Source of the DNA: Thiomargarita sp.
GTDB lineage: Bacteria > Pseudomonadota > Gammaproteobacteria > Beggiatoales > Beggiatoaceae
Direction: 5' to 3'
DNA: 34,592 nucleotides
Assembly (NCBI GenBank): GCA_020721045.1
Contig: DYNN01000020.1
Location: 1 to 34,592, forward strand
Both the position numbers and the translations under genes were made by a program. A model generated the notes under the pieces. The model was not told the DNA's origin. It made no database searches and saw nothing but the letters and a program-made list of their open reading frames with translations. This document shows, piece by piece, positions 31,029-34,592 of the stretch; positions within the stretch are counted from its first letter, which is position 1; each line of letters starts with the position of its first letter.

Positions 31029-32030
31029 ATGAATATTGTAACTAAACCCTATGCCAATGCATTTATCAATTTTGCCCATGATAAACCCGAAATTCTTTGC
31101 TTATCTGCTGATTTGACCAGTTCTTGTGAAATTGACAAATTTCGTGATCAATACCCCAATCGTTTCTTTTCAATGGGCATGACAGAACAACACACGCTGA
31201 GTTTTTGTGGCGGATTGGCGATGGAAGGTTATCGTCCTTTCTTCCACACATTTAGCGTTTTTCTCTATCGTCGCCCTTATGATCAACTAATAAATTCAGT
31301 GGCTTACTCCAATCGTAAAGTACGCTTAATGGGATTTTTACCCGGCATTACCACACCCGGCGGTGCAACACATCAAGCCATTGAAGACATTGCTGTTTTA
31401 CGCAGCGTGCCCAATATGACAATTTTAGAAACCGGTGATGCCACTGAAGTAGAAACCGTGTTAGAAGTTGCTGATGCCGTTGATGGACCTGTTTATGTAC
31501 GTGTTTTACGAGGTTTAGTACCGCGCTTATTTACAACACCTTTTCAATTCAACCAATTGCGCTTATTAAATCATGGAAAAGATATACTAGTGATTTCAGC
31601 GGGTATTACTACAGAAGAAGCTATGCGCGCAACCAAAGCACTCACAGCAGCTGGTGTCAATATTATGCATGTACATGTTTCTACACTAAAACCATTTGCC
31701 ACCGACGCATTATTAGAATTAATTGAAATGGTTAAATATGGCATTGTTACTATTGAAAATCATACGGTGATTGGCGGATTGGGCAGTATTGTTGCAGATA
31801 TTTTAGCTGAATATGGTATTGGTAAACGATTGATTAAATTAGGTTTACAAGATACTTTTGCCCACGGCGCTAGCCGTCCCTATTTGATGAAAAAATTCGG
31901 TTTAGACGCAATTGCATTGGTACACGCAATTGAAAAATTACTGGGTTCGACAACGAATATTTCAGAAACTGATTTACAAACTGTGCGATTAGATGAAGTG
32001 CACAGCGTCGCTAAGGCAGAAGCACTATGA
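31029..32030 (+). CDS. Transketolase C-terminal half (pyrimidine-binding + C-terminal domains)
   Basis: 333 residues covering only the second half of a thiamine-diphosphate transketolase. Residues ~1-165 are the pyrimidine-binding domain: FFSMGMTEQHTLSFCGGLAMEG with the cofactor-activating glutamate at E53, then PGITTPGGATHQAIEDIAVL. Residues ~190-310 are the C-terminal domain (THGKDILVISAG-like, ending ENHTVIGGLGSIVADILAE). The pyrophosphate-binding half (GDG...N motif) is missing. In split transketolases that half is usually the gene just upstream, but here upstream is divergent ccmC, so the partner must be elsewhere. Its stop overlaps the next start by 4 bases (ATGA), coupling it to the RuBisCO-like protein. 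No clear Shine-Dalgarno. DXP synthase is excluded: that enzyme has both halves in one chain. Confidence 0.88.
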   Translation: MNIVTKPYANAFINFAHDKPEILCLSADLTSSCEIDKFRDQYPNRFFSMGMTEQHTLSFCGGLAMEGYRPFFHTFSVFLYRRPYDQLINSVAYSNRKVRLMGFLPGITTPGGATHQAIEDIAVLRSVPNMTILETGDATEVETVLEVADAVDGPVYVRVLRGLVPRLFTTPFQFNQLRLLNHGKDILVISAGITTEEAMRATKALTAAGVNIMHVHVSTLKPFATDALLELIEMVKYGIVTIENHTVIGGLGSIVADILAEYGIGKRLIKLGLQDTFAHGASRPYLMKKFGLDAIALVHAIEKLLGSTTNISETDLQTVRLDEVHSVAKAEAL

Positions 32031-33145
32031 ATAATAACCGTTTTTTAGTCACTTACCAAATCACAGGTGACGAAGTTGATGCATTAGCGCGCGCACAAAT
32101 CATCTGTTTTGAACAAACTGTGGAAGTGAGCGAAGAGTTGATTAATTCTGATTTTATTCGTGAACAAATTGTTGGGCAATTAATTGAATTTAAAACAATA
32201 ACTGAACAATGTTTCAACGTCACTATCAGTTATGCAATTGATACCACTGCTTTTGAAATAACACAATTACTTAACGTGATTTTTGGCAATACTAGTATTA
32301 AAACACATATTAAAGTCGTTAATATTCAATTTCCTAGCACATTACTAGACTATTTTTCCGGACCACGTTTTGGCGTACAAGGTTTGCGAGAAAAAGTTCA
32401 AATCACTCACAAACCACTTTTATGTACCGCCTTGAAACCAATGGGAAAATCGGCAACTGAGCTTGCAACATTAGCTTATCAATTTGCTTTAGGGGGCGTA
32501 GATATTATCAAAGATGATCATGGATTAACCAATCAATCTTTTTGTCCCTACGAAGAACGAGTAAAAGCTTGTGTAGCGGCTGTGGCAAAAGCCAATGATA
32601 AAACTGGAAAAAATTGCATTTACGTACCTAATATCACTGCACCAGTAACGGAAATTGAAAAACGTGTGACTTATGCTAAACGACAAGGGGCGGGAGGATT
32701 ACTCGTTGCACCGGGCTTAACAGGTTTTGATACGATGCGCGCTATTGCAGAAAGTGAGTTTATTGATTTGCCACTGATTTCTCATCCGGCTTTATTGGGT
32801 TCAATGGTTACTAGCCAAACTAATGGATTTGCGCATTCAGTTTTATTTGCGACATTACAAAGACTTGCTGGAGCAGATGCTACAATTTATCCCAATTATG
32901 GTGGACGATTTGGATTCAGTCGAGAAGAATGTGACGCGATTGCAACGGCTTGTAGTGCGCCATTGGGTAATTATCCGGCGATTTTCCCAACTCCCGGCGG
33001 TGGTATGACTTTGGATAAAGTGCCTGATATGCAACAACTTTATGGTGAAAATGTCATATTTTTAATCGGTGGTGCATTATATGCGCATTCACCCGATTTA
33101 GTAGAAAATGTGCGTTACTTTTTAAATTTAGTTGGAAGAACTTAG
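32027..33145 (+). CDS. RuBisCO-like protein (form IV), probably an isomerase/enolase-type enzyme rather than a carboxylase
   Basis: 372 residues, shorter than true RuBisCO large chains (~470). The fold landmarks are present: GPRFGVQGLRE, TALKPMG with K137 (RuBisCO K175 position), GGVDIIKDDHG with K162 and D164 (K201, D203 positions), SHPALLG with H253, PGGGMTLDKVPDM and FLIGGALY. RuBisCO Glu204 is replaced by His165, and loop 6 with its catalytic lysine is replaced by ADATIYPNYGGRFGFS, so carboxylation is not expected. From memory this set (KDDHG, PN.GGRF) resembles the Rhodospirillum rubrum RLP that isomerises 5-methylthioribulose-1-phosphate to 1-methylthioxylulose-5-phosphate. Coupled by ATGA overlap to the transketolase half. 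The substrate here is inference. Confidence 0.9.
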   Translation: MNNNRFLVTYQITGDEVDALARAQIICFEQTVEVSEELINSDFIREQIVGQLIEFKTITEQCFNVTISYAIDTTAFEITQLLNVIFGNTSIKTHIKVVNIQFPSTLLDYFSGPRFGVQGLREKVQITHKPLLCTALKPMGKSATELATLAYQFALGGVDIIKDDHGLTNQSFCPYEERVKACVAAVAKANDKTGKNCIYVPNITAPVTEIEKRVTYAKRQGAGGLLVAPGLTGFDTMRAIAESEFIDLPLISHPALLGSMVTSQTNGFAHSVLFATLQRLAGADATIYPNYGGRFGFSREECDAIATACSAPLGNYPAIFPTPGGGMTLDKVPDMQQLYGENVIFLIGGALYAHSPDLVENVRYFLNLVGRT

Positions 33146-33155
33146 GAATGTAGTG

Positions 33156-33746
33156 ATGACTGATGAGGAATTAAAAGAACTGGTTGCAAGTTTAGCCATT
33201 GCACAACGTGAAACACGTGAACAGATGAAAGAAACTGATGCACGCATGAGAGAAACACGTGAACAGATGAAAGAAACTGATGAACGCATGAGAAAGACGG
33301 ATGAAAAGTTAGAACGGATTGGAATCCATTTGGGTAATATTACCGCAAATCAAGGAGATGTTGCAGAGGAATTCTTTTTCAACAGCTTGGTAAAAGACAT
33401 GCGTTTAGGCAGTATTCGTTTTGAAGATGTGATGAAAAATTCATCTAAGCAACGTGGCAAAATTCAAGAAGAATATGATCTAATTTTAACTAATGGTGAT
33501 TCATTAGCAATTATTGAAGTGAAGTATAAAGTGCATCAAAATGATTTGGCTAAATTAGATCGAAAAATGCAGAATTTTAAGAAATTATTCCCGATTTATC
33601 AGAACTTTAAACAATATGGCGCAATTGCTTCTTTTCATATTAATGATGATGCTAAAAGAGAAGCTTTAGAACGTGGTTATTTTGTATTACAACGACAAGG
33701 TGAGTTAATTCATGCTGAAAGTAGTGAACATTTAACTGTCTTATGA
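33156..33746 (+). CDS. Coiled-coil + PD-(D/E)XK-like protein, tandem copy 1 (4 heptad units)
   Basis: 196 residues. N-terminus MTDEELKELVASLAIAQR, then a charged coiled coil made of alternating 7-residue units of the type ETREQMK and ETDERMR: four units here, encoded by a near-perfect 42-base repeat. The C-terminal domain has the layout of a PD-(D/E)XK nuclease fold: helix VAEEFFFNSL with a Glu, EEYDLILTNGDSLAIIEVKYK supplying D...ExK, then ALERGYFVLQRQG. Catalysis is not shown. The frame extends to a TTG at 33132, but the two paralogues begin at the equivalent of ATG 33156, and AGGA sits 8 bases before it, overlapping the RLP stop. It is therefore probably in the same transcript as the RLP. 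Function unknown. Confidence 0.8.
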   Translation: MTDEELKELVASLAIAQRETREQMKETDARMRETREQMKETDERMRKTDEKLERIGIHLGNITANQGDVAEEFFFNSLVKDMRLGSIRFEDVMKNSSKQRGKIQEEYDLILTNGDSLAIIEVKYKVHQNDLAKLDRKMQNFKKLFPIYQNFKQYGAIASFHINDDAKREALERGYFVLQRQGELIHAESSEHLTVL

Positions 33747-33762
33747 CTCAAGGAGAACAATC

Positions 33763-34332
33763 ATGACAGATGATGAATTAAAAGAACTGGTTGCAAGTTT
33801 AGCTGTTGCGCAACGTGAAACCAGCGAACTCATGAGAGAAACGCGTGAACAGATGAAAGAAACTGATGAACGAATGCGAAAGACGGATGAAAAGTTAGAG
33901 CGAATTGGAATCCATTTGGGTAATATCACTGCAAATCAAGGAGATGTTGCAGAGGAGTTTTTTTTCAATAGTTTGGTAAAAGACATGCGTTTAGGCAGTA
34001 TTCGTTTTGAAGATGTGATGAAAAATTCATCTAAGCAACGTGGCAAAATTCAAGAAGAATATGATCTAATTTTAACTAATGGTGATTCATTAGCAATTAT
34101 TGAAGTGAAGTATAAAGTGCATCAAAATGATTTGGCTAAATTAGATCGAAAAATGCAGAATTTTAAGAAATTATTCCCGATTTATCAGAACTTTAAACAA
34201 TATGGCGCAATTGCTTCTTTTCATATTAATGATGATGCTAAAAGAGAAGCTTTAGAACGTGGTTATTTTGTATTACAACGACAAGGCGAGTTAATTCATG
34301 CTGAAAGTAGTGAACATTTAACTGTCTTATGA
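33763..34332 (+). CDS. Coiled-coil + PD-(D/E)XK-like protein, tandem copy 2 (3 heptad units)
   Basis: 189 residues. From MRKTDEKLERIGIHLGN to the last residue it is identical to copy 1. The N-terminal coiled coil is one heptad shorter (ETSELMR, ETREQMK, ETDERMR). The ATG follows AAGGAG by 7 bases in a 16-base gap. The putative nuclease residues (YDLIL...IIEVK) are unchanged. Near-identity at the DNA level through the C-terminal domain indicates recent duplication or gene conversion. Confidence 0.8.
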   Translation: MTDDELKELVASLAVAQRETSELMRETREQMKETDERMRKTDEKLERIGIHLGNITANQGDVAEEFFFNSLVKDMRLGSIRFEDVMKNSSKQRGKIQEEYDLILTNGDSLAIIEVKYKVHQNDLAKLDRKMQNFKKLFPIYQNFKQYGAIASFHINDDAKREALERGYFVLQRQGELIHAESSEHLTVL

Positions 34333-34348
34333 CTCAAAGAGAACAATC

Positions 34349-34592
34349 ATGACAGATGATGAATTAAAAGAATTGGTTGCAAGTTTAGCTATTGCGCAAC
34401 GTGAAACGCGTGAACAGATGAAAGAAACTGATGAGCGCATGAGAAAGACAGATGAGAAGTTAGAACGGATTGGAATCCATTTGGGTAATATTACCGCAAA
34501 TCAAGGAGATGTTGCAGAGGAATTCTTTTTCAACAGCTTGGTAAAAGACATGCGTTTAGGCAGTATTCGTTTTGAAGATGTGATGAAAAATT
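34349..34592 (+). CDS. Coiled-coil + PD-(D/E)XK-like protein, tandem copy 3 (2 heptad units; cut by window edge)
   Basis: The 81 codons visible begin MTDDELKELVASLAIAQR and carry only two heptad units (ETREQMK, ETDERMR) before RKTDEKLERIGIHLGN. The rest matches copies 1 and 2 up to the edge. The 16-base gap before it is the same as between copies 1 and 2 except that AAGGAG has become AAAGAG, a weaker ribosome site. The gene, and perhaps the array, continues to the right. Confidence 0.78.
   Translation, partial: MTDDELKELVASLAIAQRETREQMKETDERMRKTDEKLERIGIHLGNITANQGDVAEEFFFNSLVKDMRLGSIRFEDVMKN

Follow-up and report, generated by a model that had tools for sequence, protein, structure and literature searches.

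Organization of the array

The window, meaning the whole 34,592-nucleotide stretch of DNA analyzed here, is an entire contig from a genome of 3.39 Mb in 253 contigs. At its right-hand end lies an array of two complete genes and a third that is truncated by the end of the contig, and the copy number is therefore at least three. A first-pass annotation had described three adjacent genes for a coiled-coil and PD-(D/E)XK protein; the array was confirmed, and because seven other genomes have arrays of the same kind it is not a chance arrangement. The start positions (33156, 33763 and 34349) reproduce the start-to-start distances of 607 and 586 reported earlier, which differ by 21. The features of the array and its upstream neighbor are as follows.

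32027..33145, + strand: gene for a RuBisCO-like protein, the upstream neighbor outside the array, 10 bp from copy 1
33156..33746, + strand: copy 1 (196 aa), with N-terminal motif, 5-heptad rod and PD-(D/E)XK head
33207..33311, + strand: rod of copy 1, five 21-bp heptad units
33210-33293, + strand: near-perfect 42-bp tandem duplication within the copy 1 rod
33366..33524, + strand: predicted catalytic residues of copy 1, invariant in alignment A1: E71 (33366-33368), D108 (33477-33479) and E121-x-K123 (33516-33524)
33747..33762, + strand: 16-nt spacer ahead of copy 2, with an AAGGAG ribosome-binding site
33763..34332, + strand: copy 2 (189 aa), with a 4-heptad rod
33814..33897, + strand: rod of copy 2, four heptad units
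34333..34348, + strand: 16-nt spacer ahead of copy 3, CTCAAAGAGAACAATC
34349..34592, + strand: copy 3, 81 residues up to the contig end, with a 3-heptad rod
34400..34462, + strand: rod of copy 3, three heptad units

In the window, as in an array found in a Thiomargarita MAG that belongs to a different genus, the copies are spaced by 16 nt and each has its own ribosome-binding site, an arrangement from which the copies of each array are probably co-transcribed. A scan of the genes for in-frame internal starts gave none above 3/6 Shine-Dalgarno matches, and a continuation of the array was not found on the other contigs of the window's genome.

Composition of the rods

The rod of copy 1 reads RETREQM-KETDARM-RETREQM-KETDERM-RKTDEKL, that of copy 2 RETSELM-RETREQM-KETDERM-RKTDEKL, and that of copy 3 RETREQM-KETDERM-RKTDEKL. 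Copies 1, 2 and 3 thus have 5, 4 and 3 heptads with RKTDEKL counted, and 4, 3 and 2 without it, so that the earlier count of one heptad lost per copy (4-3-2) holds if that unit is excluded; a meaningful stepwise ladder, as had been proposed from it, is unsupported. Copy 1 differs from copy 3 by an apparent single two-heptad event, the 42-bp duplication, whereas copy 2 has a single 21-bp unit, RETSELM, more than copy 3. Together with the relationships among the copies and the clustering of their differences given below, the sequences indicate that the apparent ladder arose from unlike events.

Identity of the heads and probable gene conversion

Copies 1 and 2 have ten differences over the 456 nt from RKTDEKL to the stop codon, and all ten are synonymous. 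Copy 3, as far as it is visible, differs from copy 1 at 2/151 nt and from copy 2 at 11/151 nt, again only synonymously, which bears out the earlier statement that copies 1 and 2 are identical in protein to the end and that copy 3 agrees. The first 96 of the 456 nt hold nine of the ten core differences between copies 1 and 2 (P about 7e-6). Copies 1 and 3 are alike, and copy 2 is nearer to a copy in the Thiomargarita MAG, its nearest relative (4/456 core nt differ), than to copy 1. The comparison of copies that had been suggested as a check for gene conversion therefore came out in its favor, and the mosaic of differences would fit such exchange.

Nuclease fold and family membership

Residues E71, D108, E121 and K123 are invariant in an alignment of 32 relatives, and the E.D...E.K spacing is present in 102/108 cores. 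In an AlphaFold2 model (pLDDT 85), residues 3-80 form a helix that leads into an alpha/beta core, and when this modeled core was compared with the PDB (Foldseek, VIA-align) it matched NucS/EndoMS (Z 11.7, rmsd 2.9, 105 residues), Can2 (Z 10.8) and Card1 (Z 10.0), with matches to XisH structures as well. The conserved active-site residues and the characteristic alpha/beta core are the features expected of the PD-(D/E)XK superfamily, and the head is thus predicted from sequence and model to be a DNA nuclease with this fold and an intact E/D/ExK site. The rod was modeled as a monomer only, and its Met/Thr core looks weak.

In Pfam, the protein falls just below the gathering cut-off for PDDEXK_10 (PF07788; 19.9 against 21.2 bits) and below that for DUF3782 (PF12644; 10.6 against 24.4 bits), while the Rpn/transposase family is absent from the matches up to an E of 1. 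The pairing of a coiled coil with a PD-(D/E)XK domain is already known: according to Hartmann et al. 2016 (PMC4786415), PDDEXK_10 and DUF3782 nucleases likewise place a heptad coiled coil ahead of the domain, and the bacterial members lack nonads. The window protein differs from them in lying under both cut-offs and in its own N-terminus, MTDxELKxLVASLA, and heptad-stepped rods in tandem arrays are not described in the passages of that paper considered here. EndoMS/NucS and Card1/Can2 have the core fold in common with the window protein by structure comparison, but their other domains, in Card1/Can2 a cyclic-oligoadenylate sensing domain, are replaced here by the coiled coil.

Genomic setting and transfer

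The DNA of the array is about 99% identical between the two genera, whereas the neighboring genes are about 67% identical, and in Thiomargarita the counterparts of the window's neighbors lie on another contig. Because near-identical copies have different flanks, these comparisons indicate that the array, or parts of it, moved between genera. An array behind the RuBisCO-like gene was absent in five relatives of the same family. The gene that follows the RuBisCO-like protein in G011 sits, in the window's genome, on another contig rather than at the array. A type II methyltransferase-like gene lies 11 bp past the Thiomargarita array (L008 6624-7625); its counterpart in the window's genome (contig C214; L076 2695-5094) is 83% identical and is preceded by a toxin-antitoxin-like pair.

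None of the neighbors turns up at more than four of the compared loci, and no operon partner recurs across them. A defense-island setting was rejected, the neighbors being mainly housekeeping genes and each defense model matching at most two among 98 neighbors, counts that stand without a control set. In a search for a separate small coil-only partner none was convincing, the one candidate being an unlinked 121-aa coil protein. Plasmids, phages and viral contigs gave no family match. Several dispersed pairs resemble each other no further than the gene itself plus about 40-70 nt of upstream leader.

Side by side at window positions 31029-33145 are the C-terminal half of a transketolase and the RuBisCO-like protein, a pair that is also adjacent in several relatives (L085, L088, L090). 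The RuBisCO-like protein reads KDDH at a position where RuBisCO has KDDE.

Rod variation in other genomes

Seven other genomes, the Thiomargarita MAG included, have tandem copies in which the heads are conserved but the rods unequal, and so the changes in unit number that the first-pass annotation proposed to look for in relatives do occur. The Thiomargarita array consists of a C-terminal remnant followed by copies with 4 and 6 heptads. Elsewhere, tandem rods differ by 7 residues (G008), 14 (G010), 21 (G030), 36 (G022) or 18 (G088), and in G002 by 30, 40 and 70; the heads in these tandem arrays are 87-99% identical at the nucleotide level. Two of these arrays lie on contigs of over 4 Mb (G002, 4.81 Mb; G010, 4.24 Mb), which argues that assembly error is no general cause. 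Orders and steps vary among these arrays and the ladder is ruled out as a conserved rule; 4-3-2 shows a changing set of rods at one moment.

When homologs with heads at least 90% identical were compared, rod length varied between dispersed copies just as it does between tandem ones, again counter to a stepwise ladder, and the comparison gave no support to greater variation among tandem than among dispersed copies. In separate genomes, for example, L135 and L137 have identical aligned heads and rods 7 residues apart. Of 18 nonzero rod differences, hand-picked to represent separate pairs, 15 are divisible by 7 (P 1e-10, with 1/7 expected by chance; because the genes share ancestry, P overstates the independent evidence); the three others (11, 18 and 30 residues) come from rods with other repeat units. 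For 76 MTDxEL-type genes with rods of 30-156 residues, two classes modulo 7 hold 52 and 19 (chi-square P 5e-42, likewise an overstatement since these genes are kin). Selection on register and mutation in 21-bp units are both possible sources of this modulo-7 quantization, singly or together.

Three tandem copies at L078 574-3437, on a 4.8-Mb contig, have rods of 126-196 residues with no simple heptad count, and more diverged tandem pairs occur at L079 and L080. Within one genome, L011 6001-6609 and L020 6001-6609 have heads 97% identical and rods equal in length but built of different repeats; in one rod the unit has 14 residues and is similar to the N-terminal motif. Family members with frameshifts or truncations recur in these genomes (L036, L159, L161).

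Interpretation of the array

Probably a partnerless gene for a predicted PD-(D/E)XK DNA nuclease, one that spreads horizontally, has expanded in tandem here, and the length of its rod shifts by register-preserving slippage while the head is held by gene conversion and purifying selection. In such a protein the rod would oligomerize the enzyme, and N-terminal motif and head would have to keep their register while rod length is largely free; units of 21 bp could therefore come and go by slippage or unequal recombination, and purifying selection together with gene conversion would keep the head. Slippage-driven rod variation, one of the possibilities raised in the first-pass annotation, is supported.

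The alternative that survives best, although it appears unlikely, is that rod length acts as a code: only rods of equal length would pair, paralogs would stay separate homo-oligomers, and length would be under diversifying selection, as proposed for Rpn. Rpn shares a set of traits with the window genes (PMC10327210), namely a PD-(D/E)XK nuclease, single-gene transfer, tandem arrays and a fast-changing number of helical repeats, and an Rpn protein with one added four-residue repeat fails to counteract its partner, a precedent that makes such a code worth testing. Each of the tandem arrays found here whose heads are conserved also has unequal rods, and the repeat number in a predicted helix varies between close homologs. 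Rpn, however, has four-residue C-terminal repeats and an internally started antitoxin, whereas the repeats here are seven-residue and N-terminal, and the genes gave no internal start of that kind with a Shine-Dalgarno site. The failure to find a separate small partner and the mostly housekeeping neighbors likewise speak against it. Because arrays vary no more than dispersed homologs with near-identical heads, the data do not favor this code over tolerated slippage. Doubtful too is the more specific proposal that the number of heptads in the coiled coil is a length code separating near-identical nuclease paralogs, with arrays generating new lengths, in a system that resembles Rpn but is independent of it.

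It is less likely still that the gene is a selfish single-gene element, its nuclease promoting its own spread and rod variation being incidental. Changing neighbors, recent transfer, broken copies and pairs that are alike over little beyond the gene itself would all suit such an element, but neither a common insertion site nor terminal repeats nor target duplications could be recognized, and the family was not found in plasmids, phages or viral contigs. A ruler, with the spacing of two cutting heads, or of head and anchor, fixed by the length of the rod so that the enzymes differ in reach, is very improbable: helical repeat number does set DNA gap length in EcoR124I/II (PMC3874165), yet a DNA-recognition domain was not found here and rods run from 30 to 156 residues without a preferred set. 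Slimmer again is the chance that the three-copy order is partly a repeat-mediated chimera close to the contig end, for although the contig stops within copy 3 and copy 2 is closest to another MAG's copy, the 3' end of copy 2 is that of copy 1, and its spacer is of the window type, unlike the one in the other MAG. A chimera would therefore need two switches, and such arrays also sit inside multi-megabase contigs.

Relation to known systems

A further likeness is with the Type IC HsdS subunits (EcoR124I/II, PMC3874165), in which short helical repeats also differ in number between close relatives, and the number alters spacing. HsdS is a DNA-specificity subunit without a nuclease head and has four-residue TAEL repeats, whereas the window protein has a nuclease-like head and heptads. 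A literature search, with most subscription papers outside its coverage, did not find tandem arrays with register-quantized rods, the nearest reports being PMC4786415 and PMC10327210.

In this nuclease-like family a constant head is joined to a coiled-coil rod that changes in whole-repeat steps, both within arrays and between genomes. The family thereby offers a natural length series in which the effect of coiled-coil length on an enzyme could be tested, and is possibly a second instance of the repeat-number logic reported for Rpn defense nucleases. Apart from the array, the window contains two short tandem repeats, one of a 79-nt unit present 2.2 times (659-835) and one of a 33-nt unit present 2.4 times (2207-2284).
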